64,000 bases of DNA from Bacillus sp. FJAT-29790 (lineage in GTDB: Bacteria > Bacillota > Bacilli > Bacillales > Cytobacillaceae), in assembly GCF_019039215.1 (NCBI RefSeq), contig NZ_JAHNZZ010000001.1:749637-813636 (forward strand). Direction: 5' to 3'. Under the pieces are notes generated by a model that was not told the origin of the DNA, made no database searches, and was given only the letters and a program-made list of their open reading frames with translations. Positions 43,862 through 60,730 of this stretch are shown piece after piece; position 1 is the first letter of the stretch; each line of letters begins with the position of its first letter. The translations under genes were made by a program, and so were the position numbers.

Positions 43862-44239
43862 AGAGTTACTAATATAAAATGCATTCGGATCACATACCTT
43901 TGTAGGATATAATTTGCAAGTTTCACGCTTATTCGACAAAAAGGAAATGGTTATTACTGAATTTACCCTTCTTTTTGCTTAATTTTTAATAATAATGATT
44001 TTAAGAAAAAGGAATATAGTAAACTTTTACCACTCTTTAAAATATTAATAATAATCTGTAATAATAACCATTGCCTAATAACCACTTACTTACAAAATTT
44101 GTTCAAAAAGCACTCTTTTTTCACATGTTTCGTAAAGCGAAATTTGTCTGAATGATAGGTACGATATTCTATTAACACATTTTAATCGAAACAGTAGAAT
44201 TGTAGATGGTTACACTAAACGATGAAAATGGGGGAATGA
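43862..44239. other. Intergenic region, nothing recognised
   Basis: Very AT-rich 378-base gap. It must hold the promoter of the secreted carboxypeptidase, but no confident motif, repeat or terminator was found. Confidence 0.6.
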
Positions 44240-45307
44240 ATGATGAGCTTAAAAAAGAAAGTTCTATCTGTTTCATTATCTAGTTTAATGGCATTAGGAG
44301 CTGTAACAGCTGTTTCGATTCCGGCAAGTGCTGTTGGAAACGGTCCAAGCGCTGGAAATGGGTCCATCCAAACATCCATCTTGCATACATATGATAGCAT
44401 GGTAGACTATCTTAAAAAACAAGATGCGAAGCAAGCAGCAATGGAGCTTGAAGTCATTGGGCAAACTATAAAAGGCCGCGATATTTACATGGCTAAATAC
44501 ATATCTAACCCTAGCAATCCAACGATTCTATTTTTAACACAGCAACACGGAAATGAGCAGCTAACAACTGAAGGAGCACTAGAATTTATCAAACACTTAG
44601 GTACTGGCAAGACAAAAGGTGTATTGGATAATGTAAACGTATTGATCATTCCAATGTTAAATGCAGATGGCGCAATGGGCGATGTTAACTTCTCCCTTGA
44701 TAACTACTTGGCTGATGGGGATCGACACCTAACTCGCTACAATGCGAATTATGTTGATTTAAATCGTGAACATGATAAAGCGACGAGCAAAATGGAAGCA
44801 GAAGCCAGGGCATTGCATGAAAACGTATTTGCTAAATACAAAATTGACTATATGATTGATTTACACCACCAAGGAACAAGAAGTGAAACGGATGGTGAAC
44901 TAGTTTCCGGATCAATCCTATATCCAACAAACGCCCAAGTAAAACCAGAGGTACTAGAAAAATCGAAAAAACTTGGATCAGTTGTTTATAACGCTATTGA
45001 AACGCAGGGCTGGGGACATATTGGTAAATATAACGGAGACTCTGGCGCAAATATTGGCAGAAACGGCGCTGCGATTCGTTATGATATTTCAACTCTACTT
45101 TTTGAAATGCGCGGCATGTCAGATCACTATATTGAGTCATATGCGCTTGGTCAAAAAAGTAATGGCTATTTAATCAAGCAAACGATTACTACACTAGATG
45201 CAACGGTTAGAGCGATTGCAGATCGATCAATTGAAACAGCTGATACGAGCTTCTGGGACACACTGCCAACCCAAAAAAATAGACCTGGAGAAGAATCGGA
45301 CGAATAA
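44240..45307 (+). CDS. Secreted M14 zinc carboxypeptidase
   Basis: A 355-residue exoenzyme. A Sec signal peptide (basic KKK, hydrophobic LSVSLSSLMALGAVTAV, cleavage after ASA near residue 31) marks it as secreted. The M14 zinc ligands are His 103 and Glu 106 in QQHGNEQ, with the third His in IDLHHQGT near 214. The substrate-binding NADGAMGD and NYVDLNREHD blocks and the catalytic Glu in LLFEMRGMSD are present. It releases C-terminal residues from peptides. The start ATG 44240 (or 44243) follows TGGGGGAATG. It lies alone between AT-rich gaps. Confidence 0.92.
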   Translation: MMSLKKKVLSVSLSSLMALGAVTAVSIPASAVGNGPSAGNGSIQTSILHTYDSMVDYLKKQDAKQAAMELEVIGQTIKGRDIYMAKYISNPSNPTILFLTQQHGNEQLTTEGALEFIKHLGTGKTKGVLDNVNVLIIPMLNADGAMGDVNFSLDNYLADGDRHLTRYNANYVDLNREHDKATSKMEAEARALHENVFAKYKIDYMIDLHHQGTRSETDGELVSGSILYPTNAQVKPEVLEKSKKLGSVVYNAIETQGWGHIGKYNGDSGANIGRNGAAIRYDISTLLFEMRGMSDHYIESYALGQKSNGYLIKQTITTLDATVRAIADRSIETADTSFWDTLPTQKNRPGEESDE

Positions 45308-45435
45308 AGAAATAAAGCAGATTCCCCGTAATCTAAAAAAACAGGGTTGCTAAATGATTTATATTTTTCTCTTAATCTCATAGGTTTATATTAAATCGAT
45401 TGTTACTTCATGAAATATAGTTGTTAAAAAAATTC

Positions 45436-45468
45436 CGGTCACCATGCCCTCATATGGAGACCGTTTTT
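45436..45468 (+). terminator. Terminator after the carboxypeptidase gene
   Basis: CGGTCACCAT pairs with ATGGAGACCG (one mismatch), followed by TTTTT. It lies 128 bases after the gene. Confidence 0.75.
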
Positions 45469-45501
45469 CCATTTTTGTTGAGTATTAGGTCACTATGTCC
45501 C

Positions 45502-45588
45502 TTAAGATGTCCGTCCATTTTCTTCTTCCATGAGATGGTTTTCGTATCTCAAAGTCCGCTATTCAATAAAATTATGAAGTAATCCCAC
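45502..45588 (-). pseudogene. Decayed copy of the small zinc-finger protein
   Basis: From a GTG with GGTAAGGTG upstream, the frame reads GLLHNFIE, an in-frame TAG where the intact gene has Trp, then RTLRYENHLM and a stop. It corresponds to residues 1-20 of the protein at 28637-28846 (GLLNAFNEWRATRYENHV). The CxxC half is gone. Flanking DNA is also similar to the 28.8-kb locus. Confidence 0.8.
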
Positions 45589-45916
45589 GTTATTCACCTT
45601 ACCACTTTTCTATATTTATGAAATGGATTACTTCCCCCGGGTGTCACATCATTTTTCTTATTTTATTATTTGATTAATAATTCAAAATTGGAATAAAAGT
45701 GGGAAAACCCCAAAAGTTAATGAATTTCCCCCTGTTCGTTTTGAGCGGATTTACGAAGCCCCATAAAAATAGGCGTTTACTTCAGTAACAATACCTAATA
45801 ATCGTTCATATTTTGTTGGGGAGACGTACCAGTGGATTCACTAATGAATGATTGTACTCTATCCCCCTTTATTGTTGCTGGAACATCCTTAAAAAAAATT
45901 TATGGAGGCTATGCCA

Positions 45917-46207
45917 ATGTATGATTTTCAAAGAGATCTCCAAATGTTGAATGTTGGTGATTTCCACGCAAACGATGCAATTCCTTGGGATCCAAGCTCT
46001 ATGGATCGACAATTTGGTCTTTTCGGTTTTGGTTCTTGTTTTGGCTTGGGGTTTGGTTCTTGTTTTGGCTTGGGGTTTGGTTCTTGTTTCGGCTTCGGCT
46101 GTTTTGGTTTTGGTGGTTTCCGTTGTGGTGGTTGTGGTGGCTTCGGTTTCCGTTGTGGCGGTTTCCGTTGCGGTGGTTGCGGTCGCTGCGGACGCTGCTT
46201 CCGTTAA
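45917..46207 (+). CDS. Heterocycloanthracin/sonorensin-type TOMM bacteriocin precursor
   Basis: A 96-residue precursor. The leader (about 1-33, MYDFQRDLQMLNVGDFHAND and on to WDPSS) has the FQ-x2-LQ-x-L-x-V pattern of this family. The core (about 34-96) is almost only Gly, Phe, Cys and Arg with 11 Cys. It holds three tandem octapeptides GFGSCFGL/GFGSCFGF (37-44, 45-52, 53-60), then CFGFGGF and a Cys-Gly-Arg tail ending GRCGRCFR. Cys and Ser would be converted to thiazoles and oxazoles by the enzymes encoded next. ATG 45917 is chosen because GGAGG stands 8 bases before it; two earlier ATGs overlap that site. A terminator follows directly, separating it from the maturation operon. Confidence 0.92.
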   Translation: MYDFQRDLQMLNVGDFHANDAIPWDPSSMDRQFGLFGFGSCFGLGFGSCFGLGFGSCFGFGCFGFGGFRCGGCGGFGFRCGGFRCGGCGRCGRCFR

Positions 46208-46257
46208 TCGTTTTTCGTTTTCTATCGAAAAAGATGGTTTCCAAAGGAGAAGATTTT

Positions 46258-46289
46258 GCCCCTGCATATGTTTTTGCCGGGGCTTTTTT
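46258..46289 (+). terminator. Terminator after the bacteriocin precursor gene
   Basis: GCCCC pairs with GGGGC, extended by GC pairs, followed by TTTTTT. Partial read-through would give far more precursor than enzyme mRNA. Confidence 0.75.
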
Positions 46290-46387
46290 CTAAAAAATTA
46301 GACATATGGGACATATTTCGGTACATAGGGTAATAGTGAAAATGATGATGGTGATTTAAGAATAGCACACGGGTAAGGAGGAGCGAA

Positions 46388-48352
46388 ATGACGAATGTAA
46401 CCCCGTCTATGCGCTTGAAATTGAAAAGGGACACGTTTTTTCTCCCTGAACCAAATAGTGGTGTATATTTTCGGAACAACTTATGTTCGTTTCGAATGGA
46501 AGGCAGTACGATCGATCAGTGGGTTGAAAAGCTTGTACCAATGTTCAACGGGGAGTACGCGTTGGCGGATTTGACGAAAGGATTGCCGGGCCCGTATCGG
46601 GATCGGGTCTATGAAATTGCGGATGTGCTTTATCGAAATGGGTTTGTACGGGATGTGAGCCAAGATCGTCCACATCAACTGTCGGATCAGATTCTTAAAA
46701 AGTATGCTTCTCAAATTGAATTTTTGGACAGTTTTGGCGATTCGGGTGCGTACCGTTTTCAAACCTATCGCCAGGAAAAGGTGTTGGCAGTTGGCTCCGG
46801 TCCTTTTTTTGTTTCCTTGGTTTCTGCTTTGCTTGAATCTGGCTTGCCAAAGTTTCATGTCCTAATTACAGATTCGGTACAGACCAATAGACGGCGTTTA
46901 ATAGAACTTGTGGCACATGCCCGTAAAACAGACCCCGAAGTAGCTGTAGAGGAGGTCATCCTACAGGGGAATGGGGTGAGTTCATGGCGGGAGACTGTGC
47001 AGGCGTATCAATCAATTTTGTATGTTTCGCAGAAAGGGGATATAGAGGAACTACGGGATCTCCATGGGATTTGTAGGGAAGAAAAGAAGGTGTTTATACC
47101 AGCTATTTGCCTGCAGCAGGTGGGGCTGGCAGGTCCTGTGGTGCATCCAGACTCTATGGCATGCTGGGAGTCTGCGTGGCGCCGTATACATCAATCTGTG
47201 CTTCCCGAAGATCAGCAGTTAACCGGCTTCTCATCCACAGCAGGGGCGATGTTGGCTAATGTAATCGTGTTTGAATTGTTCAAAGAGAGTACAAGAAAGA
47301 CCGAATCGGAACAAAATAATCAAATCTTTCTACTTGATCTGAATACGTTGGAAGGAAATTGGCATTCCTTCATGCCACATCCGTTAGTGGATGGTCGTGT
47401 TTCTGCCAAATGGGTTCAAGATTTAGATTTGCGGCTTGAACAGAGCTTAAACAAAGTTGAGGAGAGTAAATTGCTTCTTTACTTCAGTCAATTTACATCA
47501 GCTGACTTAGGAATTTTCCATGTTTGGGAAGAAGGGGACTTGAACCAGCTGCCATTAGCTCAGTGTCGTGTTCAGGTAGTCGACTATTTGTCGGAGGGAC
47601 CGACTGGGCTTTTACCAGAACTGATTGGTACCGGCTTGACGCATGAAGAGGCAAGAAAAGAAGCGGGACTGGCCGGGATTGAGGCGTATGTGTCACAAAT
47701 AGCTGATCTGCTTGTTACGACTCTACCACCACATCATGAAGTAGATGATAGTATGGCGGATCGAAAGGGTTTAGTCGGTATCGGAACGGGAGAAACGTTT
47801 GCGGAAGCTGTTGGCCGCGGATTGAAAATGTGTTTGGAAAAGGAATTAAACAAGCAATTGGCTGATCAGACGAATTTCGTCTCACGGGTTCACTTGAGTG
47901 AGATAGAAGATGAGCGATGCCGTTTTTATTTGCAAGCACTGACTACGATGCAGGGTGCACCAATCATAGGCTTAGGAAAGGAAGTGTCAGGTTTCCCTGT
48001 CGTATGGATTGGTACGAATGGAAGTTGGTACGGCAGTGTAGGTTTGAATACCACAGAGGCGTTACGGAATGCGCTACAACAGGTGCTCAAGAAGGTACAA
48101 AACCGAGCGATTTGTCAAACGACACAGGCGTTGGAGGTTTCGTCTGTACTTCTGGAAGAAAAGGAGCTTCAAAGCCTAGTCATTCATCCGTGTGAAGTTT
48201 CCACAAAACCTGATGTATTGTATTCCGCAATTAAGACCTTGGAAAGAAACGGCAAGCAGCTTCTCGTCTTTGAACTTGAATTGGAACCATTTTTGAAAGA
48301 GGGACTTGAAGGGGTGTATGGAGTTATGTTACGAGAGGAGGAAGCCAAGTGA
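46388..48352 (+). CDS. Thiazole-containing bacteriocin maturation protein (ThiF-like)
   Basis: A 654-residue protein of the group found beside heterocycloanthracin precursors. An N-terminal region (about 1-110) is followed by a ThiF/E1-like Rossmann segment at about 125-300 (VLAVGSGPFFVSLVSALLES, then HVLITDSVQTNRRRL). The adenylation site is not well kept, and no CxxC zinc pairs are evident. The C-terminal half (about 330-654) is family-specific. Its likely role is to bind the precursor leader and assist the cyclodehydratase. The start ATG 46388 follows TAAGGAGGAGC. Its last codon overlaps the next start, so the two are translationally coupled. Confidence 0.88.
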   Translation: MTNVTPSMRLKLKRDTFFLPEPNSGVYFRNNLCSFRMEGSTIDQWVEKLVPMFNGEYALADLTKGLPGPYRDRVYEIADVLYRNGFVRDVSQDRPHQLSDQILKKYASQIEFLDSFGDSGAYRFQTYRQEKVLAVGSGPFFVSLVSALLESGLPKFHVLITDSVQTNRRRLIELVAHARKTDPEVAVEEVILQGNGVSSWRETVQAYQSILYVSQKGDIEELRDLHGICREEKKVFIPAICLQQVGLAGPVVHPDSMACWESAWRRIHQSVLPEDQQLTGFSSTAGAMLANVIVFELFKESTRKTESEQNNQIFLLDLNTLEGNWHSFMPHPLVDGRVSAKWVQDLDLRLEQSLNKVEESKLLLYFSQFTSADLGIFHVWEEGDLNQLPLAQCRVQVVDYLSEGPTGLLPELIGTGLTHEEARKEAGLAGIEAYVSQIADLLVTTLPPHHEVDDSMADRKGLVGIGTGETFAEAVGRGLKMCLEKELNKQLADQTNFVSRVHLSEIEDERCRFYLQALTTMQGAPIIGLGKEVSGFPVVWIGTNGSWYGSVGLNTTEALRNALQQVLKKVQNRAICQTTQALEVSSVLLEEKELQSLVIHPCEVSTKPDVLYSAIKTLERNGKQLLVFELELEPFLKEGLEGVYGVMLREEEAK

Positions 48353-50292
48353 GTGCTGTCGTATTAGTGGTCGGAGAAGGATTGTTGGCTGATCGCGTCT
48401 GTACAGAACTGTCTGCACAATACGAGGTCGTTCGTCAAGCTGATTTCGAGACAGAAATACCAGAAGCGGCTAATTTGGTTCTTGTATTGGACGATACTTG
48501 GCATCCCTCTGTTCATCAAAAAGCGGAAGAGGTGTTGCGAATAGCCGGCATCCCTTGGCTGCGAGGATTCGTTTCATTTGGTGAAGGTGTGATCGGGCCA
48601 TTGGTTTATCCAGGTAAACTGGGTTGCTCCCAATGTGCAAATTTAAGACTTCTAATGGCCGGACGAGACCGTAAAGAGATGTGGGAGATAGAGCAAAGAC
48701 TGACGGAGGTCGGTGAAGTGTCGCGCGATCCATGGGTATCGCGATCGGGCGTTTTACAGATGGCCCATCTGATTGAGGCAGAGGTGCAGAGCTTATTACA
48801 GGGTGATAAGGTTCGCTCGGAAGAACGGATATTATTAATCAATCTAAAAACGCTGAAGAGTTCATCCCATTTCTTTCTGCCTGACCCGTTGTGTCCATTT
48901 TGTGGTCAATTACCTGACGATTCAGCGACTGAGGCCCGAATATCGCTGCAACCTAGTCCAAAGATTAGTTCCGATAGTTACCGCTGCCGCTCGATGGATG
49001 ATCTGAATAAAGTTTTAGTTAAAGACTATATGGACAATCGGACCGGCTTATTAAATGGAAAAATGTATGACATCGTGACGCCATTTGCCGATGTCGGAGC
49101 CAATTTGCCGTTGTTCTCAGGGGACGAGGGAGTGGCAGGTAGGACACATTCATATGCGGTAAGTGAGCAGACCGCTATTTTAGAGGGGTTGGAGCGGTAC
49201 TGCGGTTTGTCTCCCCACGGCAAACGAACAGTGGTCCATGATAGTTTCCGCAATCTGAAACATGAAGCACTCAATCCGTTCAAGGTAGGGGTGCACGCGA
49301 AGGAACAATATATGAAGCCTGATTTTCCGTTCGAACCGTTTCATCCTGATCGCTCAATGAATTGGGTATGGGGCTATTCGTTTACGCAAGAGCGTCCGAT
49401 TCTTGTTCCAGAGTTGCTTGCTTATTATAGTTTGGGCTGCGGTGACGGATTTGTGTATGAAACTTCCAACGGATGCGCATTAGGCGGAAGTTTGGAGGAG
49501 GCCATTTTCTATGGAGTGATGGAAGTAGTGGAGCGTGATTCGTTCTTGATGACTTGGTACGCGCAACTAACACTCCCGCGTCTTGATCCTTATTCAGCAA
49601 ACGACCAAGAATTACAGTTGATGATTGAGCGTGCACGAGCGGTTGCGGGATACGATCTATACTTCTATAACTCGACAATGGAGAACGGTATTCCAAGCGT
49701 GTTGGCGTTGGCGAAAAACAGAAAGGAAAAGGGGATGAATATCATCTGTGCCGCCGGTTCGCATTTGGACCCAGTGCGAGCGGCGAAAAGCGCGGTTTAC
49801 GAGTTGGCAGGTATGATGCTGACGCTTGACGGGGAATTTGAAGCGAAAAAGGAGAAGTATGCACGAATGTTGCAAGATTCTTCACTAGTACGGAAGATGG
49901 AAGACCATGGAATGCTGTATGGTTTACCGGAAGCGGAAGAGCGCCTGAGGTTTTTATTGGACGAAACCCGTCCGATGCGAACGTTTGATGAGGAATTCAA
50001 ATGGAAGGCAAAGCATACAGATCTGACTGATGATTTGCAGGATATACTTCAAGTGTTTTGCCGATTAAATCTAGATGTAATTGTAGTGGATCAAACGACA
50101 CCGGTAACGAAACGAAACGGACTGAATTGTGTGAAAGTGCTGATTCCCGGCATGTTGCCGATGACATTCGGGCACCATCTTACTCGCGTAACAGGGCTGG
50201 ATAGGGTGTTAACAGTGCCAATGGACCTCGGATACTCGAAACAACCGCTGACACATGAACAGCTCAATCCATTTCCACATCCGTTTCCATAG
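48349..50292 (+). CDS. Fused E1-like/YcaO TOMM cyclodehydratase (SagD-type)
   Basis: A 647-residue cyclodehydratase that turns Cys/Ser of the precursor into azolines using ATP. Residues about 1-215 form the E1-like partner domain with a Zn site from two CxxC pairs (GCSQC near 94, CPFC near 182). Residues about 235-647 form the YcaO domain: EGLERYCGLSPHG near 280, ETSNGCALGGSLEEAIFYGV near 375, and VERDSF, with ATP/Mg-binding Glu residues. The protein ends NPFPHPFP, a proline tail of the kind needed in YcaO active sites. The start is GTG at 48349, overlapping the previous stop by GTGA. Fusion of both halves in one chain is typical of this TOMM class. Confidence 0.93.
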   Translation: MSAVVLVVGEGLLADRVCTELSAQYEVVRQADFETEIPEAANLVLVLDDTWHPSVHQKAEEVLRIAGIPWLRGFVSFGEGVIGPLVYPGKLGCSQCANLRLLMAGRDRKEMWEIEQRLTEVGEVSRDPWVSRSGVLQMAHLIEAEVQSLLQGDKVRSEERILLINLKTLKSSSHFFLPDPLCPFCGQLPDDSATEARISLQPSPKISSDSYRCRSMDDLNKVLVKDYMDNRTGLLNGKMYDIVTPFADVGANLPLFSGDEGVAGRTHSYAVSEQTAILEGLERYCGLSPHGKRTVVHDSFRNLKHEALNPFKVGVHAKEQYMKPDFPFEPFHPDRSMNWVWGYSFTQERPILVPELLAYYSLGCGDGFVYETSNGCALGGSLEEAIFYGVMEVVERDSFLMTWYAQLTLPRLDPYSANDQELQLMIERARAVAGYDLYFYNSTMENGIPSVLALAKNRKEKGMNIICAAGSHLDPVRAAKSAVYELAGMMLTLDGEFEAKKEKYARMLQDSSLVRKMEDHGMLYGLPEAEERLRFLLDETRPMRTFDEEFKWKAKHTDLTDDLQDILQVFCRLNLDVIVVDQTTPVTKRNGLNCVKVLIPGMLPMTFGHHLTRVTGLDRVLTVPMDLGYSKQPLTHEQLNPFPHPFP

Positions 50293-50313
50293 TGGTGTTT
50301 AGGAGGTAGGAGG

Positions 50314-51891
50314 ATGGTTCTAGAGGCATTTCTGCACAATCTTCATTTTGACAATGAAAAAATCACTCCGCCGGACTGGGAAGTGGACTGGGATGATGCA
50401 CCGCTAGCCTATAAGCTCTATCGCGGCTTGCCGGTTGTTCCTTTATCTCTAGAAGTACCGCTGACGCTAGACGGAAGGGGAATACCTGCAAAGCCTGACC
50501 TTCGTACAATCGGTCATTTTCTATGGTACACGTTTGGCCTTACTCAGGTTTCCCAGTTAGTCCCTCCTTTAGATTCCACGGAAAATACGGTTGACTTCGT
50601 GCAGTCGTATAGGCGATTTGTTCCTTCCGGTGGGGCGTTGTATCCAAACGAATTATACGTGTATTTGAAGCTGGAGGATCTGCCTGCTGGGGTGTACCAT
50701 TATGATGTAGCACATCACAGCTTAGTGTTATTGCGAGAAGGAAATTTCGATTCATATATAGCCCGCGCTCTGGGTCATCGCTATGACGAGGACACTTGTT
50801 TTGGGACTGTTTTTGTATCGACCATGTTTTGGAAAAATTTTTATAAATACAATAATTTTGCCTATCGTCTGCAAGGGCTGGATGCTGGGGTGGTAATTGG
50901 ACAGTTATTGGAAGTAGCAAAAAGTTTTGGCTTTGCATCAGGTGTTTTCTTTCAATTTCTTGATCGGGCCATCAACCATCTTCTTGGGCTTTCCGAACAG
51001 GAGGAGAGTGTGTATGCGGTTATTCCTCTATCTGTGGAACCTACAAACTGGTCAAATAACCGGAGTGACGTAGCCGGGATTGTCTCTGCAGACGAATTGT
51101 GCCGAGAATTGACATCCCTTCCTTATAATCACTATCAACGGTCGCAGAAGGTCGCAGAGTGCCCGTTTTTGACTATGATGAATGAAGCATCTATGCTGGA
51201 ATCAACGCAGTCGTTTCGAAAAATCGAGGTGAAGAAGAATCTAAATTGTGACGGTCAAGCACAAGTTCTTCCTCGCATGAAGAGGATGTCGTATGATCTT
51301 GCAGCGGTCTGCAGAGAGCGATATTCTCCGGAGATGGATTTCGTTTTGGGAAAGGTAAGTCAGTCTCAACTGGCCAATCTTTTGCAGGAGACAATTGCTT
51401 CCTTTTCATATCGCAATGATTTGGATGTAGCACATTCGAAGCAAGAGTCTCGTGTCTCGCTGTATGTCTGTTTGTATAATGTTGAGGGCATTCAAGATGG
51501 TGCTTATTATTATGATAGTGCTGCTCATGTTTTACGGCAGGTAGATCTTGGAGATCATCGACTCGAGTTACAAAAAGGATTGGTTGGATTTAATGTGAAT
51601 TTACACCAAGTACCACTTTGCCTTAATGTGGCAGGGGATAGCGATCACTTAATACCAGCACTCGGTTACAGAGGATATCGTATCCAACAAATGGAAGCGG
51701 GTATGCTGACACAGCGATTATTGTTATCTGCGACAGCCATTGGGATGGGGGGACACCCACTCCTCGGGTTTAATGCGAAAATGAGTGATGAAATTTTCAA
51801 GATAGATACACATGGAAAAACCAGCCTAATCCAAATCCCGATTGGTCCATATCGACAACGTCCATGGATGAAAGGCAGTTTGCATAGTTAA
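50314..51891 (+). CDS. SagB-type FMN dehydrogenase for azole formation
   Basis: A 525-residue nitroreductase-fold oxidoreductase that should oxidise azolines to thiazoles/oxazoles with FMN. It appears as two tandem SagB-like halves. The first runs about 60-250 (RFVPSGGALYPNELYVYLK, GVYHYDVAHHSLVLL, then GLDAGVVIGQLLEVAKSFGF). The second runs about 330-515 (VSLYVCLYNVEGIQDGAYYY, then QRLLLSATAIGMGGHPLLGF). The start ATG 50314 follows TAGGAGGTAGG, 21 bases after the YcaO stop. It is the last gene of the cluster; no transporter, protease or immunity gene follows. Confidence 0.9.
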   Translation: MVLEAFLHNLHFDNEKITPPDWEVDWDDAPLAYKLYRGLPVVPLSLEVPLTLDGRGIPAKPDLRTIGHFLWYTFGLTQVSQLVPPLDSTENTVDFVQSYRRFVPSGGALYPNELYVYLKLEDLPAGVYHYDVAHHSLVLLREGNFDSYIARALGHRYDEDTCFGTVFVSTMFWKNFYKYNNFAYRLQGLDAGVVIGQLLEVAKSFGFASGVFFQFLDRAINHLLGLSEQEESVYAVIPLSVEPTNWSNNRSDVAGIVSADELCRELTSLPYNHYQRSQKVAECPFLTMMNEASMLESTQSFRKIEVKKNLNCDGQAQVLPRMKRMSYDLAAVCRERYSPEMDFVLGKVSQSQLANLLQETIASFSYRNDLDVAHSKQESRVSLYVCLYNVEGIQDGAYYYDSAAHVLRQVDLGDHRLELQKGLVGFNVNLHQVPLCLNVAGDSDHLIPALGYRGYRIQQMEAGMLTQRLLLSATAIGMGGHPLLGFNAKMSDEIFKIDTHGKTSLIQIPIGPYRQRPWMKGSLHS

Positions 51892-52045
51892 TTGAGCCTA
51901 GTAAGGAAAGGGTTGTGAAAAACCTGTTTTTATGAAGCGCCTTGGATAAGGGAAAAAGTGTGAACATGGTTTTGGTAGTATTATCTCTCTTATATTTGTG
52001 GAAATTGAGCGTGCGAATTCAATGATCGTATAACTGGAAAACGAG

Positions 52046-52101
52046 GCCTGTTCCCCAATGTATTTACGAATTCACGCATTGGGGATCAGGCACTTATTTT
52101 T
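52046..52101 (+). terminator. Terminator-like hairpin linked to the 21-bp repeats
   Basis: GCCTGTTCCCCAATG pairs with CATTGGGGATCAGGC (one mismatch), followed by ACTTATTTTT. The same GGGATCAGGCACTT end and the same downstream repeat occur at 42653-42813. Confidence 0.8.
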
Positions 52102-52124
52102 GATTATGGTCAAGTTATAACTGA

Positions 52125-52208
52125 TTTGGCTGATAAACTATTAAATTTGGCTGATAAATTACCGAAATTGGCTGACAAACTACTGAAACTGGCTGATAAA
52201 AGAATATA
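52125..52208. repeat. 21-bp tandem repeat array, locus 2 (four units)
   Basis: Units start at 52125, 52146, 52167 and 52188 with the TTGGCTGA-AAA core. In one frame this reads DLADKLLNLADKLPKLADKL, so all four heptapeptides are open here. There is no start codon or ribosome binding site. Confidence 0.9.
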
Positions 52209-52447
52209 TCCGAAAAAAAAAGAACGCACTGTCGGTTAGGATAGTAACTAACGTTGGATTCACGGAACTGTTTGAAGGGTTTCTTCTGTTTTTTCGCCTG
52301 ATTTATCTGGTCAAGTTGTTTTTATCCTCATACAAGAGCTTCTGGCTACTATTTCAGATATTGAAAGTAATAAACTTGTTATGAACAAATTCGTAAAGCT
52401 CCGAATGAAAAATGTCCACATTAAGGCAAATAGGGGCTATGTGTAAA

Positions 52448-52600
52448 TTTCCCCCTGAAAGCGCTCTTTTGTCATTAAAAACGGGACAAGCATTTGCGAG
52501 TGATTTAGAACTCCAAAAACTCCACCAGCTAATAGTTGATTATTTTACTCAAATAAAGGAAAAAGATGAATATCCCCCCTTATCTTTGTTTGAAAATTAG
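52448..52600 (+). pseudogene. C-terminal remnant of a TetR-type regulator
   Basis: The frame reads ESALLSLKTGQAFASDLELQ, then KLHQLIVDYFTQIKEKDEY. It aligns with the last 40 residues of the intact TetR-type regulator at 35365-36264 (ESALESLKAGQSLFGTKELQ, then KLDQLVDDYFTQIEEQD). Upstream sequence (52290-52440) looks like further decayed regulator but with stops in every frame. Confidence 0.85.
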
Positions 52601-52604
52601 GGGG

Positions 52605-53060
52605 TTATTTAATGTAATTAAATCATATGTGGATTTAGATTAGTTGTGCAGTTGTAATATCATTCTTAATCACAAATCTTCTTCAATTGCTGGATAGTAG
52701 AAGGGCATTTTGGAAGACTTATTAGTGATATAGAAACAAATTGAAGCAGAGAATAACTGTTTATTCATTCCATGAAAGATAGTAGTTAAATTGTGGGGAA
52801 TAATAGTGCATAATTTAATCTTAGCGACACCAGAATCAATGCCAAAATGGTCAAACGGCTCAAGTTATTGTAGAATTTAGTTTTGTACTTAATCCATTGG
52901 GCAATAATAAATACATTTCCAGAAGATGATAACATTTACTAAATTAGTTTCTCTAAGCATTTTGTTATGGAATCAATTCCGGCAGGTTTTAGATGTTTCA
53001 CTAGCTAAATTGCTTAACACAAATTCCGTAATGTTATGTAGTAATTTAGGAGGTAGAAAA
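52605..53060. other. Intergenic region before the quinone oxidoreductase gene
   Basis: No gene supported. A frame opening at 52926 merely extends the oxidoreductase upstream without a ribosome binding site. Some stretches (52830-52920) read as protein-like but have no start and are unidentified. Confidence 0.5.
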
Positions 53061-54326: not shown

Positions 54327-54495
54327 AGGGCTCTCCCCTCAATACGATATGGATTGAACAGGTAGAGGGTCATACAAATTTATTTTGAGAGAGAAAAAGA
54401 GCAGTTCGGTAAATAGATTCACAATCAGTAGGTTCTATCAGTGTAATTGATTTCTTCATGTGATTTAAATAGATTTGCTAGGGAGGATGCATAAC

Positions 54496-55419
54496 TTGAA
54501 TTTTGAACATCTTAAAGTATTTCACATGGCAGCAAAGAAAAGGAATTTTTCTGAAACAGCCAAATTACTACATATGTCACAACCGAGTATCAGTTTGCAA
54601 ATTCGGCAGCTTGAGGAATCATTAAACATCAAACTGTTTAAACGGACGACGAGAAAAGTCGATTTGACCCCAGCTGGTGAGATCCTTTTTAACTCCTCCG
54701 AGAAAATCTTGAATTTAATTCATCAGACAGAACAGGAGATTGCCCTTCTATCGGATTCGAATTATGGTGTTTTGAACATTGGCGCCAGCATGACAATAGG
54801 AGAGCATATCCTCCCATACGCTTTAGGGAAATATAAAAAGGAATATCCAAACGTAAATATTATCCTTGAAATCTACAATACAGATCAAATCATCGAGAAA
54901 CTAGTCAATGAGGAAATCCATCTCGCATTTGTTCAATCGATGATTTCTTACCCGAAATATCGTCAGCTCCCCTTTTTTGAAGATAAGTTAATCCTAATTG
55001 CATCCAATAATTACACTCATCCGCTTTTGGATCACCAGCAACGAAGCATTAGCTTGAATGATATGTTTTCACTCCCCTTAATTTTAAGGGAAGCAGGCTC
55101 AGGAACAAGACAAGTCATAGAGGAACAGCTGCGTCGTAACAAACTAAATCCTGAAAAGCTTCAGATCATTCTTGAACTTGAAAACACCCAGTCTATAAAA
55201 TCAGCAGTTGAATCAGGTATGGGATTATCGATTATTTCCCAAGCATCCGTTCAACACGAGCTCCGCTTAAAAACACTTCGTCAATTTTCTATCGAGGGAA
55301 TGAACTTAAAACGAAATTTTTATTCTGTTTACGATGAGAAAAGGCTAACATCTGCAAGCGAATCCTTTCTTTTATTTCTTCATAATTACTACAGCATGAA
55401 AAGTAAGACATCAGTGTAG
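54496..55419 (+). CDS. LysR-family transcriptional regulator
   Basis: A 307-residue regulator. The N-terminal winged HTH reads NFSETAKLLHMSQPSISLQI, then RQLEESLNIKLFKRTTRKVD (residues about 16-56). The effector domain starts GVLNIGASMTIGEHILPYAL near 88. The start is TTG 54496 (MNFEHLKVFHMAAK), with GGAGG 9 bases upstream; ATG 54487 and TTG 54475 are in-frame alternatives. It lies directly upstream of, and in the same direction as, the sulfoacetaldehyde dehydrogenase-like operon, whose 265-base leader contains a LysR-style inverted repeat. It is therefore a likely activator of that operon, with the pathway acid or its CoA ester as candidate inducer. Confidence 0.92.
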   Translation: MNFEHLKVFHMAAKKRNFSETAKLLHMSQPSISLQIRQLEESLNIKLFKRTTRKVDLTPAGEILFNSSEKILNLIHQTEQEIALLSDSNYGVLNIGASMTIGEHILPYALGKYKKEYPNVNIILEIYNTDQIIEKLVNEEIHLAFVQSMISYPKYRQLPFFEDKLILIASNNYTHPLLDHQQRSISLNDMFSLPLILREAGSGTRQVIEEQLRRNKLNPEKLQIILELENTQSIKSAVESGMGLSIISQASVQHELRLKTLRQFSIEGMNLKRNFYSVYDEKRLTSASESFLLFLHNYYSMKSKTSV

Positions 55420-55430
55420 ATATGGACCCT

Positions 55431-55456
55431 AACTGACATCCAGGTGTCAGTTTTTT
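55431..55456 (+). terminator. Terminator of the LysR-type gene
   Basis: AACTGACA pairs with TGTCAGTT around a 6-base loop, followed by TTTT. It separates the regulator from the catabolic operon. Confidence 0.8.
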
Positions 55457-55531
55457 AAATTTCTAATAATCGAAAAAGCCAATAGATCAAGCCAGAATGG
55501 AAATTCATAATAATTCTTTATATATGTAATA

Positions 55532-55573
55532 AATTATCCAAATATATCAAATATTTAAAATATATTGATAATT
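55532..55573 (+). promoter_or_regulatory. Candidate LysR-type operator
   Basis: AATTATCCAAATATAT faces ATATATTGATAATT across about 12 AT-rich bases, an imperfect inverted repeat with a T-N11-A-like core, about 110 bases before the operon start. Strong AT bias here makes chance symmetry possible. Confidence 0.4.
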
Positions 55574-55684
55574 TAAAGGTGATTGAATTACCATAAGGAG
55601 GCAGGCTTCCAAAATTTCTAAATCTGATGACCACATCATGAAATTGGTAATGAAAGAAAAATTGGATAGGATGGAGGAGCAAGT

Positions 55685-57124
55685 ATGACAAAGAACGTAA
55701 AAGATCATGTGAAAAGCGCAGGTGTGATCGATGTGAAGGATGTTATTTCAACCATGATGGAAAAAGCTAGGTCTGCGATGAAAACTTTTAATGGATATTG
55801 CCAGGAACAAGTGGATGAAGTGGTTCAAGCAGTTGCCTGGGCAATCTACAAACCGGGTCATGCAGAGGCATTAGCAGAACTTGCATTAATGGAAACAGGT
55901 TTAGGCTGTTATGACGACAAAGTCACAAAAAAGCGGCGTAAAACGCTTGGAACGCTTCGTGATCTAAAAGGGGCCAAATCAGTTGGCGTAATAAACGTTG
56001 ACGTAGCTAAAGGAATCACCGAAATAGCAAAGCCGGTAGGTGTTGTCGCTGCCGTCGTTCCTTCCACAAATCCTGGTGCTACACCAGCTAATATCGCTAT
56101 GATGGCCTTAAAAGGACGGAATGCGATTATCATTGCCCCATCACCAAAAGGATTAACTACAAGCCAATTGCTTCTTCAATATATTCATAAGGAATTTGAA
56201 AAAATCGGTGCACCTCTTGACCTTGTTCAAGTTTTGCCGCCGCCAGTCAACAAAGCCATTACAAAAGAACTAATGAACCAGGCTGACTTCGTTACAGTAA
56301 CAGGATCTGCTAATAATGTGTACAACGGTCAAACATCCGGAAAGCCAAATGCTTGTGTTGGAGCTGGGAACGTTGTATCCATTGTAGACGCAACTGCCAA
56401 TATCGAAGAAGCCGCCCGTAAAATTTATTTGAGTAAAACCTTTGATAACGCTACAAGCTGTTCCAATGATAACTCTGTGGTAATTGAAGCCGCTGTCTAT
56501 GACGAAATGATTGCTGCATTGCAAAAAGAAGGAGGTTATCTTTGTAACCAAAAGGAAAAAGAGCTGCTGCAGCATGCCATGTGGATAGATGGAAAACGAA
56601 ATAGCAGAACAGTTGCGAAAGATCCTTATGTTTTGGCAAAAGAGGCTGGCCTGGAATGTGCAAAAGCGAAAAATGCAAAGTTTTTTATGGTCAAAGAAAC
56701 AGGTGTCGGGAAAGAATACCCTTTTTCTGGAGAGAAACTAGCCGTCGTATTAACGGTTTATAAGGCCGCTGATTTTAATGAAGCAATAGAGCTGACAAAA
56801 GAGATTCTTCAATACCAAGGCCGCGGCCACTCTTGCGGGCTGCATACGACTGATGAATCACATATAGAGCAAATCGGGATGGAGATCGATGTGTGCCGTC
56901 TGTTAATCAATCAAGTTCAGGTATATGGGAACGGGGGAAGCTTCAATAACGGCCTTAATTTTACACTTTCAATGGGCGGTGGTTCATGGGCAGGTAATAA
57001 TATCGGAGAAAACTTATCATATAAACATTTCTTGAACATCACAAGGGTTTCGCGTGTTATTCCAGAAGTGGTACCTACTGATGAAGAACTTTGGAGTACG
57101 TATTGGAACAAATATGGCCGCTAA
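55685..57124 (+). CDS. sauS: CoA-acylating aldehyde dehydrogenase, probable sulfoacetaldehyde dehydrogenase
   Basis: A 479-residue CoA-dependent ALDH. VVPSTNPGATPANIAMMALK near residue 119 is the acylating-ALDH signature, and the catalytic Cys is near 258 in DNATSCSNDNSVVIE. A Gly-rich end (LSMGGGSWAGNNIGENL) is conserved in this group. The overall sequence and the neighbours (acyl-CoA ligase pair, MFS importer, LysR regulator) match acylating sulfoacetaldehyde dehydrogenase, which reduces sulfoacetyl-CoA to sulfoacetaldehyde (or the reverse). The start ATG 55685 follows ATGGAGGAG. The substrate is inferred from context; another short acid is possible. Xsc, which would split sulfoacetaldehyde, is not in the window. 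Confidence 0.8.
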   Translation: MTKNVKDHVKSAGVIDVKDVISTMMEKARSAMKTFNGYCQEQVDEVVQAVAWAIYKPGHAEALAELALMETGLGCYDDKVTKKRRKTLGTLRDLKGAKSVGVINVDVAKGITEIAKPVGVVAAVVPSTNPGATPANIAMMALKGRNAIIIAPSPKGLTTSQLLLQYIHKEFEKIGAPLDLVQVLPPPVNKAITKELMNQADFVTVTGSANNVYNGQTSGKPNACVGAGNVVSIVDATANIEEAARKIYLSKTFDNATSCSNDNSVVIEAAVYDEMIAALQKEGGYLCNQKEKELLQHAMWIDGKRNSRTVAKDPYVLAKEAGLECAKAKNAKFFMVKETGVGKEYPFSGEKLAVVLTVYKAADFNEAIELTKEILQYQGRGHSCGLHTTDESHIEQIGMEIDVCRLLINQVQVYGNGGSFNNGLNFTLSMGGGSWAGNNIGENLSYKHFLNITRVSRVIPEVVPTDEELWSTYWNKYGR

Positions 57125-57142
57125 AGAGGAGGGATATTGATT

Positions 57143-58267
57143 ATGAAATTATTTGAATACCAGGCCAAAGACATATTTGAAGAAAGTTCAATTCCTGTCC
57201 CAAACAGGATATTAATTAAAAATAATGATGAAGCCGAAAATGCGGTGAATGAAGTGGGTATCCCTTGTGTACTAAAAGCACAGGTCCTTCACGGAGGAAG
57301 AGGAAAAGCCGGACTTATTAAGCTTGTATCAGAATTGGATGCAGTACAGGAAAATGCAGACGGAATATTCTCACGGGCGAAAAATATGCCGTACTTATTA
57401 ATTGAAGAGGCCATCAACATTGAGAAGGAACTGTATGTTTCTATTAGCGCAGATCCCATGACAGGATATGGGATGATAATGGCTTGTGCAGAAGGCGGAA
57501 TTGATATAGAAGAAATTGCAAGGACGATGCCGGAACAAATCAAAAAGTTGCTTGTGGATCCGTCTGTTGGTCTATTGCCATATCAAGCTAGAAGTCTCCT
57601 ATATGAGCTAGGCATTCAACAGGAAATGATCGGACAGGGGACGAAAATTCTATTAAACTTATACGATATTTTTCAAAAGTATGAATTGGAATTGGTGGAG
57701 ATTAACCCTTTGATGATCACTAAGGAAGGGGGGTTCATTGCAGGTGATGGTAAAGTAAGTATTGATGACAATGCATTGTTTAGACACCCGCAGTTTTCAA
57801 TGACAAGGGAGTATTTTGAAAACGATGCTCAATATGAAGCTGCACAGGAAGGGATTCCTTATCTCCAATTCGACGGCAATATCGGCTTAATGTGTGCTGG
57901 AGCCGGATTAACCAACACGGTTTTTGACCTTGTGAATGATTATGGCGGAAGTGTCGCTAATTATCTTGAATTTGGTGGTCCAAATTACCACAAGGCACGA
58001 AAGGCCATGGAGATTATGATGAAAAATGACATTAAAGTGATGCTAATTGTCACATTTGGCACGATTGCCAGAGCAGATGTAATGGCGAAAGGGGTCGTTG
58101 ATGCCATTAAAGAATTAAAGCCCGACTTTCCAATTGTTACGGCGATTCGGGGGACAGGAGAGGAAGAAGCACATGAACTTCTTCGCGGTGCGGGGCTTGA
58201 TCCGCTAAAAGATACAGAGGAAGCGGTAATCACGGCAATCGCACTGGCTGGAGGTGGAAAGCGATGA
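57143..58267 (+). CDS. SucC-like ADP/GDP-forming acyl-CoA ligase, beta subunit
   Basis: A 374-residue ATP-grasp subunit. KLFEYQAKDIFEESSIPVPN at the start, the nucleotide loop VLHGGRGKAGLIK near residue 48, and ELVEINPLMITKEGGFIAGD, then GKVSIDDNALFRHPQF, match succinyl-CoA synthetase beta. The C-terminal power-helix domain (GLMCAGAGLTN...GGPNYHKARKAM) is complete. ATG 57143 is chosen because GGAGGG is 9 bases upstream; TTG 57137 is too close. It overlaps the alpha-subunit start (ATGA). Being between a sulfoacetaldehyde dehydrogenase-like gene and an importer, it probably forms sulfoacetyl-CoA rather than succinyl-CoA, as the SqwKL ligase does in a sulfoglycolysis pathway. Confidence 0.9.
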   Translation: MKLFEYQAKDIFEESSIPVPNRILIKNNDEAENAVNEVGIPCVLKAQVLHGGRGKAGLIKLVSELDAVQENADGIFSRAKNMPYLLIEEAINIEKELYVSISADPMTGYGMIMACAEGGIDIEEIARTMPEQIKKLLVDPSVGLLPYQARSLLYELGIQQEMIGQGTKILLNLYDIFQKYELELVEINPLMITKEGGFIAGDGKVSIDDNALFRHPQFSMTREYFENDAQYEAAQEGIPYLQFDGNIGLMCAGAGLTNTVFDLVNDYGGSVANYLEFGGPNYHKARKAMEIMMKNDIKVMLIVTFGTIARADVMAKGVVDAIKELKPDFPIVTAIRGTGEEEAHELLRGAGLDPLKDTEEAVITAIALAGGGKR

Positions 58268-59157
58268 GCATTATTTTAGATAGGCGTACGCGAGTATTGG
58301 TACAGGGAATTACGGGCAAGGAAGGGGCTTTTTGGACACAGCATATGATTGATTACGGAACCAACGTGGTTGCTGGAGTTACACCGGGCAGAGAAGGACA
58401 ATATGCAGCAGGGGTCCCCGTTTACCATACGGTCCGCCGTGCAGTAGCTGATATTCCTGTAGATGCCTCACTCCTATTTGTTCCTCCGAGGTTTGCCAAG
58501 GATGCACTAATGGAAGCGCTGGATGCGGGAATTAAGAAAGTTGTTATTTTATGTGATGGGATTCCATTGCACGATGCCATGCAAATGAGGAGAGCTGCCC
58601 GATTGGCTGGTGCGATGGTGATAGGAGGCAATACATCAGGCATTATTTCAATGGGGCAGGCTATGATGGGATTTTTCCCGTATTGGCTGGATCGTGTTTA
58701 TCGTCCTGGACGCATAGGAATCATGACAAGGAGCGGTTCTTTAACAAATGAAGTTACCGCAGAGGTCGTTCGTGCAGGTTTTGGCTGCTCATCTTTAATT
58801 GGAATCGGGGGAGATCCAGTTCCAATGACCCGATTTGCTGAAGTACTTCCATTATTCGAGGCAGACCCGGACACAGACGCTGTTGTTATGATTGGTGAAC
58901 TTGGTGGGACGATGGAGGAAGAAGTTGCTGAAGCAATTGAGAATAAAGTCTTCACCAAGCCTTTGGTTGCTTTTCTAGGAGGAAGGACTGCACCAGAAGG
59001 GAAAAAGATGGGTCATGCTGGAGCCATCGTAACGGCAGGTAAAGGAACGGTGAAAGATAAAATCGCTGCATTGAAAAAAGCAGGAGCATACGTTGCTGAA
59101 CGTCCGAGAAATGTCGGTATGCTACTTGAATCCTTTTTGGTCGGCAATAAGCGTTAA
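58264..59157 (+). CDS. SucD-like ADP/GDP-forming acyl-CoA ligase, alpha subunit
   Basis: A 297-residue CoA-binding subunit. RVLVQGITGKEGAFWTQHMI near residue 9 is the CoA-binding Rossmann motif, IGIMTRSGSLTNEVTAEVVR near 153 starts the ligase domain, and the phospho-histidine is about 251 in KKMGHAGAIV. FLGGRTAPEGKK is conserved. Its ATG overlaps the beta-subunit stop (ATGA), so subunits are made in balance. It differs from housekeeping SucD, which is normally beside sucC in its own operon. The acid specificity is inferred from neighbours only. Confidence 0.9.
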   Translation: MSIILDRRTRVLVQGITGKEGAFWTQHMIDYGTNVVAGVTPGREGQYAAGVPVYHTVRRAVADIPVDASLLFVPPRFAKDALMEALDAGIKKVVILCDGIPLHDAMQMRRAARLAGAMVIGGNTSGIISMGQAMMGFFPYWLDRVYRPGRIGIMTRSGSLTNEVTAEVVRAGFGCSSLIGIGGDPVPMTRFAEVLPLFEADPDTDAVVMIGELGGTMEEEVAEAIENKVFTKPLVAFLGGRTAPEGKKMGHAGAIVTAGKGTVKDKIAALKKAGAYVAERPRNVGMLLESFLVGNKR

Positions 59158-59320
59158 AGCCGCTAACTATAAATAATAGGTATTAGTAAAGTCGGATGTA
59201 AGCGCTTTATTTATTCTTAAATCATCTTTAAAAACTTAGGCGAAAAGATTATTATTCTGTCTATCAATTTTGAGACCTTACAAAATACTCTGGAAAAATC
59301 TTTGGAAAGAGTGGTGTGCT

Positions 59321-59350
59321 AGATCCCTGCCAAAAAAGAGGCAGGGATCT
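59321..59350 (+). terminator. Hairpin between ligase and MFS genes
   Basis: AGATCCCTGCC pairs perfectly with GGCAGGGATCT around an 8-base A-rich loop. No T-run follows, so it may attenuate or protect mRNA rather than stop transcription. Confidence 0.6.
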
Positions 59351-59431
59351 GAAATAAAACGAATTCTTCATGAAACCAATGTGTGGTGTTGAGGTTTAGG
59401 AACATAAACAAGATTTTAGGGAGGCAAGGGG

Positions 59432-60730
59432 ATGAAGAAAAAAATCACTGTTGGTAACAAAGTGTTATTTCTTCTATGTGCTATGTATTTTATCACGTAT
59501 ATTGATAGAGTCAACATTGCCACAGCTGCTCCGTTTATGCAAAAAGATCTTAATCTGTCCACGACCGAAATGGGTCTCATATTGTCAGCCTTCGCTTATC
59601 CATATGCTTTTTTGCAGATTTTTGGCGGATGGATCGGAGATAAGGTAGGTCCACGTAAAACATTGACCTTCGTAGGAGCAATTTGGTCAGTGGCAACCAT
59701 CGTTACAGGAATGGTCACAGGAATGTTCAGTGCCATATTGGCACGAGTTGGGCTTGGTCTTGGAGAAGGAGCCGCATTTCCTACAGCAACGAGAGCGATG
59801 GCACAATGGCTGCCCAAAGATAAGTTCGGATACGCCCAGGGGATTGTACATTCGGCTTCCCGGCTTGGAAATGCAGTAGCGCCGCCCCTTATTGCATTAT
59901 TGATAGTTGCCTATGGCTGGCGTGAATCGTTTGTCATTATGGGTGTCATTAGTCTTGTTTGGATGGTTGTGTGGATGTGGTATTTTCGAGATAACCCGAA
60001 AAATCATCCGAAGATGACATCTGAGGAGCTAGAGAAGCTGCCAAGGTATGTGACGAAAAGTGAGAAGAAAAAAATCAAGGTTCCTTGGAAAGCATTATCG
60101 AAAAGGATTCTTCCCGTTACCTTTGTAGACTTTTGTTACGGATGGACATTATGGGTGTATTTAACTTGGCTGCCTTCCTTTTTATTCACAGCCTACGGAC
60201 TGGATATCAAATCTTCAGCGTTGTTTGCGGCGGGTATCCTGATGTCCGGTGTTATCGGTGATACATTGGGAGGTGTGATATCAGACCGAATTTATCGTAA
60301 GACGAATAATCTGAAATTGGCACGCCGGTCTTTATTAATCGTTGGTTTATCAGGTTCATTCATCTTCCTTTTACCTACTTTATTTGTACACAATCTGGCG
60401 TTTATCGCCATTTCAATGAGCCTTGCCTTCTTTTTCCTAGAACTGTGCAATGCCGTTCTATGGGCGATCCCAATGGATATTGCGCCTAATCATTCAGGAA
60501 CCGCGAGTGGTATGATGAATACAGGCTTCGGTGTGGCCGGAATGCTGTCACCTGTAGCTTTTGGTTTCTTAATTGCTGTCTCTGGCAACTGGCAAGTACC
60601 TTTTATCATGTCTATTGTCTTACTGGTTGCGGGAATTATCGTTACGTTAAGGATTGATCCTTCCAAACAACTAGAAGAAGACACCGATATCCCAATCGAT
60701 CCATTAAATCCAAATGTGAAAAGTGTATAA
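59432..60730 (+). CDS. MFS organic-anion importer (ACS family), candidate SauU-like sulfoacetate carrier
   Basis: A 432-residue protein with twelve hydrophobic segments. ITYIDRVNIATAAPFMQKDL near residue 21, FGGWIGDKVGPRKTL near 63 (motif A) and GLGEGAAFPTATRAMAQWLP near 110 mark the anion:cation symporter family that takes up hexuronates, tartrate, phthalate and sulfonate acids. The start ATG 59432 follows AGGGAGGCAAGG. It is 274 bases after the SucD-like gene in the same direction, the usual place of a substrate importer such as SauU. Which anion it carries is inferred. Confidence 0.9.
   Translation: MKKKITVGNKVLFLLCAMYFITYIDRVNIATAAPFMQKDLNLSTTEMGLILSAFAYPYAFLQIFGGWIGDKVGPRKTLTFVGAIWSVATIVTGMVTGMFSAILARVGLGLGEGAAFPTATRAMAQWLPKDKFGYAQGIVHSASRLGNAVAPPLIALLIVAYGWRESFVIMGVISLVWMVVWMWYFRDNPKNHPKMTSEELEKLPRYVTKSEKKKIKVPWKALSKRILPVTFVDFCYGWTLWVYLTWLPSFLFTAYGLDIKSSALFAAGILMSGVIGDTLGGVISDRIYRKTNNLKLARRSLLIVGLSGSFIFLLPTLFVHNLAFIAISMSLAFFFLELCNAVLWAIPMDIAPNHSGTASGMMNTGFGVAGMLSPVAFGFLIAVSGNWQVPFIMSIVLLVAGIIVTLRIDPSKQLEEDTDIPIDPLNPNVKSV

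Follow-up and report, generated by a model that had tools for sequence, protein, structure and literature searches.

In the window, that is, the whole 64,000-nucleotide stretch of Bacillus sp. FJAT-29790 DNA that was analysed, four genes on the forward strand (positions 45917-51891) form what is, judging from their sequence, a complete heterocycloanthracin (HCA) cassette, which adds another member to an established family. Two promoter-like elements, one ahead of the gene for the peptide precursor and one ahead of the three enzyme genes, are conserved across HCA loci far beyond most of their flanks. These elements suggest that the cassette is switched on in two steps by the sporulating mother cell, the enzymes first and their substrate later, a reading to which we give a probability of about 0.7. 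For the regulatory part of this reading, the in silico support is good. It also seems fairly probable that HCAs as a family are developmental products and not secreted vegetative ones: they would be made in two timed mother-cell steps and end up on the spore or close to it, with no need for an exporter or an immunity protein. The elements and genes concerned are as follows:

45767-45778, forward strand: GerE-box-like site AAATAGGCGTTT, 0 mismatches to RWWTRGGYNNYY, starting 21 nt ahead of the AC in the -35
45786-45815, forward strand: sigma-K-type promoter (from the alignment and a composite scan), TAACA at -35 (AC at 45788-45789), 17 nt, CATATTTTG at -10 (45807-45815)
45917-46207, forward strand: precursor of the HCA/sonorensin family, 96 amino acids (TIGR03601, 45.1 bits, cut-off 35)
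46258-46289, forward strand: terminator-like hairpin (from a fold z-score), GCCCC...GGGGC followed by TTTTTT, between the precursor and enzyme genes
46303-46331, forward strand: sigma-E-type promoter (from conservation across loci), CATA at 46303-46306, 17 nt, CATAGGGT at 46324-46331
46309-46316, forward strand: SpoIIID-like box GGACATAT, one mismatch to RRACARNY, the consensus that we assume
46388-48352, forward strand: F protein (ocin-ThiF-like), 654 amino acids, with an N-terminal leader-binding RRE (TIGR03693, 792.5 bits, cut-off 561.9)
48349-50292, forward strand: fused E1-like (C) and YcaO (D) cyclodehydratase, 647 amino acids, GTG start (TIGR03882, 160.7 bits, cut-off 36.9; TIGR03604, 414.3 bits, cut-off 219.25)
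50314-51891, forward strand: SagB-type flavin mononucleotide (FMN) dehydrogenase (B), 525 amino acids, matched in two stretches (TIGR03605, 220.8 bits, cut-off 78.4)

A sigma-K-type element ahead of the precursor gene

The element ahead of the precursor is a composite of fixed layout: the GerE box, 9 nt, the AC of the -35, 17 (or 16) nt, and CATA. With at most one mismatch allowed in the GerE box, it is found at most 300 nt from the precursor in 77 of the 83 HCA loci (74/80 minus the duplicates L019, L033 and L068), and the loci that carry it span 18 GTDB genera of the window's order as well as Paenibacillus and a Cohnella metagenome-assembled genome (MAG). When both strands of the window and of 25 loci (1,164,384 nt) were scanned, 23 of the 24 matches fell at a precursor promoter; 3 Mb of simulated Markov-1 sequence gave 4 matches, none of them at 0 mismatches. 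The spacer from AC to CATA is 17 nt long in 68 and 16 nt long in 4 of the 72 loci counted. B. methanolicus PB1 (L031) has the composite with 0 mismatches. In a profile of 71 loci, the GG of the GerE box, the G three bases before AC, the C seven after the A of AC and the T seven after the C of CATA reach 1.7-2 bits, and the 39 bases upstream of the GerE box carry 0.01-0.57 bits. As for the loci behind these numbers, L001, which duplicates the window, and L002, a chance match without F, were excluded from all counts. The three duplicates were also excluded from the 71-locus profile, from the 77-locus count of SpoIIID boxes and from the 77-precursor comparison of cores, L019 and L033 from one survey of the precursor promoter, and L033 from the near-flank comparison. 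Three loci with no automatic precursor call (L059, L062 and L067) are outside the 71-locus profile and the 77-precursor and 77-box counts, and outside the 80 loci examined for the enzyme promoter; they were read by hand and are included in 77/83.

Sigma-K and sigma-E promoters share their -10 sequence, and differ at position 4 of the -35 (C for sigma-K versus T for sigma-E) and in the optimal gap (15 versus 12), according to excerpts of Eichenberger et al. 2004 (PMC517825). The C at position 4 of the precursor -35 and the usual gap of 15 fit sigma-K over sigma-E, the bases having been placed on the numbering of that paper by our own analysis. A Bacillus thuringiensis study, in the part available, describes a sigma-K promoter of the form CAC-N16-CATATGTTA and reports that GerE controls exosporium genes (PMC4750369).

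A purine-rich stretch near the likely transcription start is conserved as well, in the window at 45816-45826 and in its relatives, at +9 to +19 after the -10 CATA (0.4-1.3 bits in the 71 loci). The upstream block as a whole might have been read as an RNA leader; this reading was set aside because the conservation sits in islands that flank a spacer of variable sequence and constant length, but the bases at +9 to +19 show conservation too. A scan of positions 44000-53000 against Rfam at gathering thresholds returned nothing.

A sigma-E-type element ahead of the enzyme genes

The precursor and enzyme genes are separated by the hairpin at 46258-46289. The region 46208-46300 has a fold z-score of -2.35, with 4 of 200 shuffled sequences folding as well, and similar hairpins can be seen by eye in many of the 22 aligned relatives; the hairpin was not listed by a consensus terminator scan, the loop limit of which is 8. 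Downstream of it, a CATA-like -35 followed by 17 nt and CATA is present at most 160 nt from the F gene in 73 of 80 loci, where simulations gave a mean of 0.56 and a maximum of 3. In 55 of 77 loci (simulated mean 0.06) the -10 CATA is preceded at 15 nt by an exact RRACARNY, mostly GGACAAAT, and the T at -19 of this promoter is invariant in the 64 loci that could be anchored. Read from its bases, this island fits a sigma-E promoter, with a gap of 13 that is inside the 12 +/- 1 stated in excerpts of PMC517825, together with a SpoIIID site.

Host regulators and evidence against two-step control

The putative regulators are encoded by the host. SigK (373 bits), SpoIIID (153) and SigE (443) were each found over the cut-off, and a 74-residue GerE was identified by length and sequence. 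The host gerE gene, taken as a positive control, is preceded at about 90 nt by a sigma-K-like site. Biofilms of B. cereus show an HCA-family gene, BC1248-50 and sporulation genes raised together, which agrees with mother-cell control, but this observation is confounded by many other changes (excerpts of PMC6962202). A literature search that covered few subscription papers gave no paper linking the HCA family to mother-cell control. In the excerpts of PMC4634765, thiazole has a single mention, within a plantazolicin reference.

Several observations weigh against control by the mother cell. The composite is absent in 6 of the 83 loci (L032, L040, L053, L056, L065 and L079), and in the 71-locus profile AC and CATA are fixed by construction. 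Both promoter counts are measures of conservation and not blind predictions, since the search patterns were written after the alignments had been seen. The sequence RWWTRGGYNNYY is what we take to be the GerE-box consensus; it was matched in the literature only as a motif of the cyanobacterial regulator PedR, and in none of the GerE papers examined. RRACARNY, which we likewise presume to be the SpoIIID consensus, was not recovered in the literature searched. The SpoIIID-like box of the window deviates at one position, and in the enzyme -35 the place of the conserved T corresponds to a gap of 13, where 12 would be optimal. Two host CotZ-family coat genes, also examined as positive controls, are without the composite site, which is thus not a general mark of host coat genes. 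The co-occurrence of GerE with HCA is weak, with GerE being found in 93 of 94 HCA genomes versus 285 of 303 others (P = 0.055, Fisher test). Lastly, a sigma-70-like site (9/12) lies ahead of the precursor at 45641-45669, within chance expectation.

This last site bears on a different explanation, in which the cassette makes an ordinary HCA bacteriocin that is secreted in vegetative or stationary phase, its exporter, leader protease and immunity are encoded elsewhere, and the upstream islands are promoters of another regulon. The family is termed a putative bacteriocin by Haft 2009 (PMC2674419), and sonorensin, a predicted HCA, is reported in excerpts of PMC4544038 to damage the membranes of Gram-positive and Gram-negative cells and so kill them. 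The sigma-70-like site ahead of the precursor would suit such a gene, but sites of this type are no more frequent in the region than expected by chance (10 found versus 11.2 expected), both conserved control elements resemble mother-cell promoters, and no flanking gene outside the cassette is common to the compared loci. We judge a secreted vegetative product to be unlikely, and the two-step program of the mother cell remains our preferred reading.

One genome, G428, is the sole one of the 94 HCA genomes without a GerE match at E 1e-20, which could be due to an assembly gap. The precursor promoter of its locus (L056) retains a GerE-like core and CATA, without the AC of the -35.

Gene neighborhood and distribution of the cassette

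For a comparison of neighborhoods, 25 loci of 8.5-22.5 kb (from Bacillus, Cytobacillus, Rossellomorea, Oceanobacillus, Paenibacillus and two MAGs) were set beside a 25.6-kb part of the window. The genes for F, the YcaO fusion and SagB are found in the same order in all 26 loci. Among the other window open reading frames (ORFs) of at least 90 codons, none belongs to a family common to at least four of the 26 loci. Because immunity proteins can be small, the comparison was extended to near-flank ORFs of at least 35 amino acids (24 loci and the window), and the sole window match was a 366-residue oxidoreductase, shared with one locus. No exporter, protease or immunity gene travelling with the cassette was found among the flanks compared, the rest of the genome not having been searched. 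Besides the enzymes and precursors, the families of ORFs of at least 90 amino acids that occur in at least four loci are mostly confined to Rossellomorea and its near relatives; two further families (5 and 4 loci) have members at scattered positions, none of them a window gene. An M14 carboxypeptidase encoded upstream of the precursor gene, at 44240-45307, was a candidate leader protease but was discarded, since it belongs to no ORF family common to at least four loci.

A Cys-rich precursor-like ORF is upstream of F in all 53 loci found through F, and F is downstream of the precursor, within the stretch fetched, in all 30 of the loci found through TIGR03601, for which only the best-scoring 30 were taken. 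The F protein is found in 28 of the 36 genomes of the window's GTDB genus, the window genome included, and 94 of the 397 genomes of the order have a TIGR03601 match at E 0.001, 81 of them over the cut-off. In comparison, 254 HCA clusters are given in excerpts of Cox et al. (PMC4603692).

Two other loci show additional HCA-like genes. In Paenibacillus aceris (L035:3691-5583) a second YcaO-fusion gene, in inverted orientation, precedes the main cassette by about 4-6 kb, and a second HCA-like cassette may lie there. In genome G357 two matches to the precursor model are 0.8 kb apart (contig C1, 617533-617769 and 618292-618510), the second being below the cut-off and containing one internal stop.

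Cassette genes and comparison with known systems

HCA systems are described by their leader family, the F protein, the dehydrogenase and a fused cyclodehydratase whose C part is short by about 100 amino acids (Haft 2009, PMC2674419; excerpts of Cox et al. 2015, PMC4603692). The preliminary description of this DNA had proposed an HCA-type cluster with ThiF-like, E1-YcaO and SagB genes, and all four genes indeed score over the curated NCBIfam cut-offs for the HCA system. Its coordinates, and its account of a 96-residue precursor with three GFGSCFGL/F units and 11 cysteines, hold when the ORFs and repeats are read again. The start codon of the precursor at 45917 is 8 nt downstream of GGAGG, and two other in-frame ATGs, at 45902 and 45911, either overlap this site or stand very close to it. 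The peptide probably has a leader of about 33 amino acids followed by a core rich in Gly, Cys, Phe and Arg; it matched no Pfam model and nothing in a plasmid collection. Residues 10-90 of the F protein match the solved PbtF chain 8t19_A (E 2e-7), by which leader binding is predicted. The gene for the YcaO fusion starts before the F gene ends (48349 versus 48352). In the fusion protein, TIGR03882 spans residues 68-235 and TIGR03604 spans residues 264-647 of 647, the YcaO portion matches LynD, MusD and TruD, and the C-terminus is of the PxPxP type (PHPFP). For the SagB protein, the best match of solved structure is 3eo7_A (E 5e-24), and McbC is far weaker (E 2e-4).

The cassette shares with the HCAs of Haft 2009 and Cox et al. 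2015 the TIGR03601 leader, the TIGR03693 F protein, the C/YcaO fusion and the SagB-type enzyme, and also a low-complexity Cys-rich core that varies by small units. It differs from them in three respects. The window precursor adjoins its enzymes, like the precursors of the 53 loci found through F and of the 30 best found through TIGR03601, whereas in most of the B. cereus group it is far away (PMC2674419; excerpts of PMC4603692), with the B. licheniformis case of Haft being adjacent. The first half of the window core has an 8-residue Cys spacing with Ser-Cys and is not mainly (Cys-Xaa-Xaa)n, and the two mother-cell-type promoters are absent from the portions of the Haft 2009 and Cox et al. accounts that were available. 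Sonorensin of Bacillus sonorensis MT93 has a precursor of the same family, judged from the TIGR03601 name only.

Two other groups of azole peptides are related more distantly. About half of the thiopeptide YcaO proteins group with those of HCAs (Cox et al., excerpts of PMC4603692). Thiopeptide cassettes resemble that of the window in having an F protein and a fused cyclodehydratase, and the RRE of the window F protein resembles that of PbtF, but no extra modification gene recurs beside the window-type cassette in the 26 loci. By eye, the window core is without what we take to be the thiopeptide pattern. From the microcin B17 system, McbC is a weak relative of the window SagB protein, for which no orthology is claimed. 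The core of microcin B17 is Gly-rich, with Gly-Ser-Cys and Gly-Cys, and its system is unlike the window cassette in having a different leader, discrete C and D proteins, and a dedicated exporter and immunity.

The precursor core and its octapeptide repeat

The window precursor contains one further feature:

46025-46096, forward strand: three tandem 24-bp units encoding GFGSCFGL, GFGSCFGL and GFGSCFGF (from Tandem Repeats Finder and the sequence letters)

The units are at 46025-46048, 46049-46072 and 46073-46096. Of the 24 bases, 1 differs between copies 1 and 2, and 2 differ between copies 2 and 3; Tandem Repeats Finder reports a period of 24, 2.8 copies and 97% matches. Three DNA copies that are so nearly identical look as they would after recent duplication. 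The 11 cysteines are spaced 8, 8, 5, 8, 3, 7, 5, 3, 3 and 3 residues apart, so that the pattern is CXX-like at the end and not in the first half. An Arg-Cys-Gly tail had also been described for this peptide; Arg-Cys-Gly does recur near the C-terminus, but the peptide itself ends in Cys-Phe-Arg (...CGGCGRCGRCFR).

We compared the core with those of 77 non-duplicate precursors (1038 cysteines and 961 Cys-Cys spacings). A spacing of 3 accounts for 662 of the 961, and a spacing of 8 for 11, three of which come from the window. The residue preceding Cys is Arg in 368, Asn in 201, Gly in 200 and Ser in 161 of the 1038 cases, which makes Ser look like one tolerated spacer residue among several. Copies of GFGSCFG are present in six species (3, 3, 4, 3, 5 and 4 in the window genome and L004-L008, in that order), the precursors of which are 92-134 amino acids long. 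The relatives L004-L008 place these units mostly at spacings other than 8, and B. methanolicus PB1 (L031), with an F protein (75%) about as close as those of L004-L008, has none; the octapeptide register is thus not conserved. These results indicate that the octapeptides are, at the level of sequence, a local variant of the HCA core. It had been proposed that the core length can change, and this agrees with the differing GFGSCFG counts (one genome per species); a repeat core identical everywhere would have spoken against the earlier account, and the cores differ among the six GFGSC species. The number of octapeptides would change via gain or loss of 24-bp units.

The Ser-Cys pairs of the octapeptides had also been proposed to become tandem oxazole-thiazole units at 8-residue spacing. 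If they did so in the manner of microcin B17, the product might be like a gyrase poison. There is one hint in favor: Gly-Ser-Cys recurs in L004-L008 despite a switch of codon class, the Ser codon of the GSC units being TCN in four of the six species (L003-L006) and AGY in two (L007-L008). The Ser residue has thus been kept or regained, which is the sole hint that it matters. Across the family, the 8-residue spacing is rare, and Arg, Asn or Gly can stand in place of the Ser that precedes Cys. In addition, Cox et al. name thiazoline heterocycles for the reconstituted HCA cyclodehydratase (excerpts of PMC4603692). The comparison gives the oxazole proposal no support, and we regard a product of the microcin B17 kind as quite improbable.

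Two precursors have cores of other types. In the Cohnella MAG (L054:3688-4089) there is an independent octapeptide repeat of the CGGFGGGF type, in about four copies, with Phe and not Ser preceding Cys. In Oceanobacillus salinisoli (L040:9547-9831), the precursor at the HCA position has a core of four His/Cys-rich units (HCHHCHTQYHCHA-like) that is unlike all others and looks metal-binding as much as azole-forming; this locus is also without the GerE/sigma-K composite.

Proposed sequence of events and fate of the product

On the two-step reading, the promoter elements suggest that RNA polymerase with sigma-E, tuned by SpoIIID, would transcribe the genes of the enzymes at an early stage in the mother cell, and that sigma-K with GerE would transcribe the precursor late. 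By analogy with the family (excerpts of PMC4603692), the F protein would then bind the conserved leader and present it to the cyclodehydratase. The YcaO fusion, as its family suggests, would close the core cysteines to thiazolines, which the SagB enzyme would oxidise to thiazoles. Upon lysis of the mother cell, the peptide may be released beside the spore or laid on its surface, and no exporter or immunity gene would be needed because the mother cell dies; these last steps are the least certain.

Within mother-cell control, the peptide might be a building material of the spore surface and not an antimicrobial, that is, a Cys/Gly/Phe-rich azole peptide that the mother cell would build into the coat or crust. 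Exosporium genes and other late genes of the mother cell are under the control of SigK and GerE (excerpts of PMC4750369 and PMC517825), and the sequence and length of the core vary greatly as the leader and promoters stay, as could be the case for bulk structural material. Antagonistic peptides, however, typically show such fast change of the core as well, and the Oceanobacillus version is His/Cys-rich, unlike the others. We hold a structural role to be a tentative possibility; a released antimicrobial and a spore-surface material have similar odds. If it is an antimicrobial, the HCA peptide would be an antibiotic escort for the dormant spore.

HCA clusters are common, yet the literature examined, part of it as excerpts, gives no account of when the products are made or why exporter and immunity genes are not shared. 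If control by the mother cell is true, the biosynthesis of azole peptides would be tied to spore development, which would explain, in a way that can be tested, why export and immunity genes are missing, and chemists should look for the products in sporulating cultures and on spores.

Other observations in the window

Just downstream of the SagB gene, positions 52126-52200 contain a 21-bp tandem repeat (TTGGCTGATAAACTACTGAAA, 3.6 copies), and no ORF of at least 50 amino acids is listed there. Further downstream, the region 54475-60730 encodes a LysR regulator, an aldehyde dehydrogenase-family protein and a subunit of a coenzyme A ligase (from Pfam), followed by what appear by eye to be a second ligase subunit and an MFS-like ORF. 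This gene set resembles what we take to be a catabolic operon of the sulfoacetate type.

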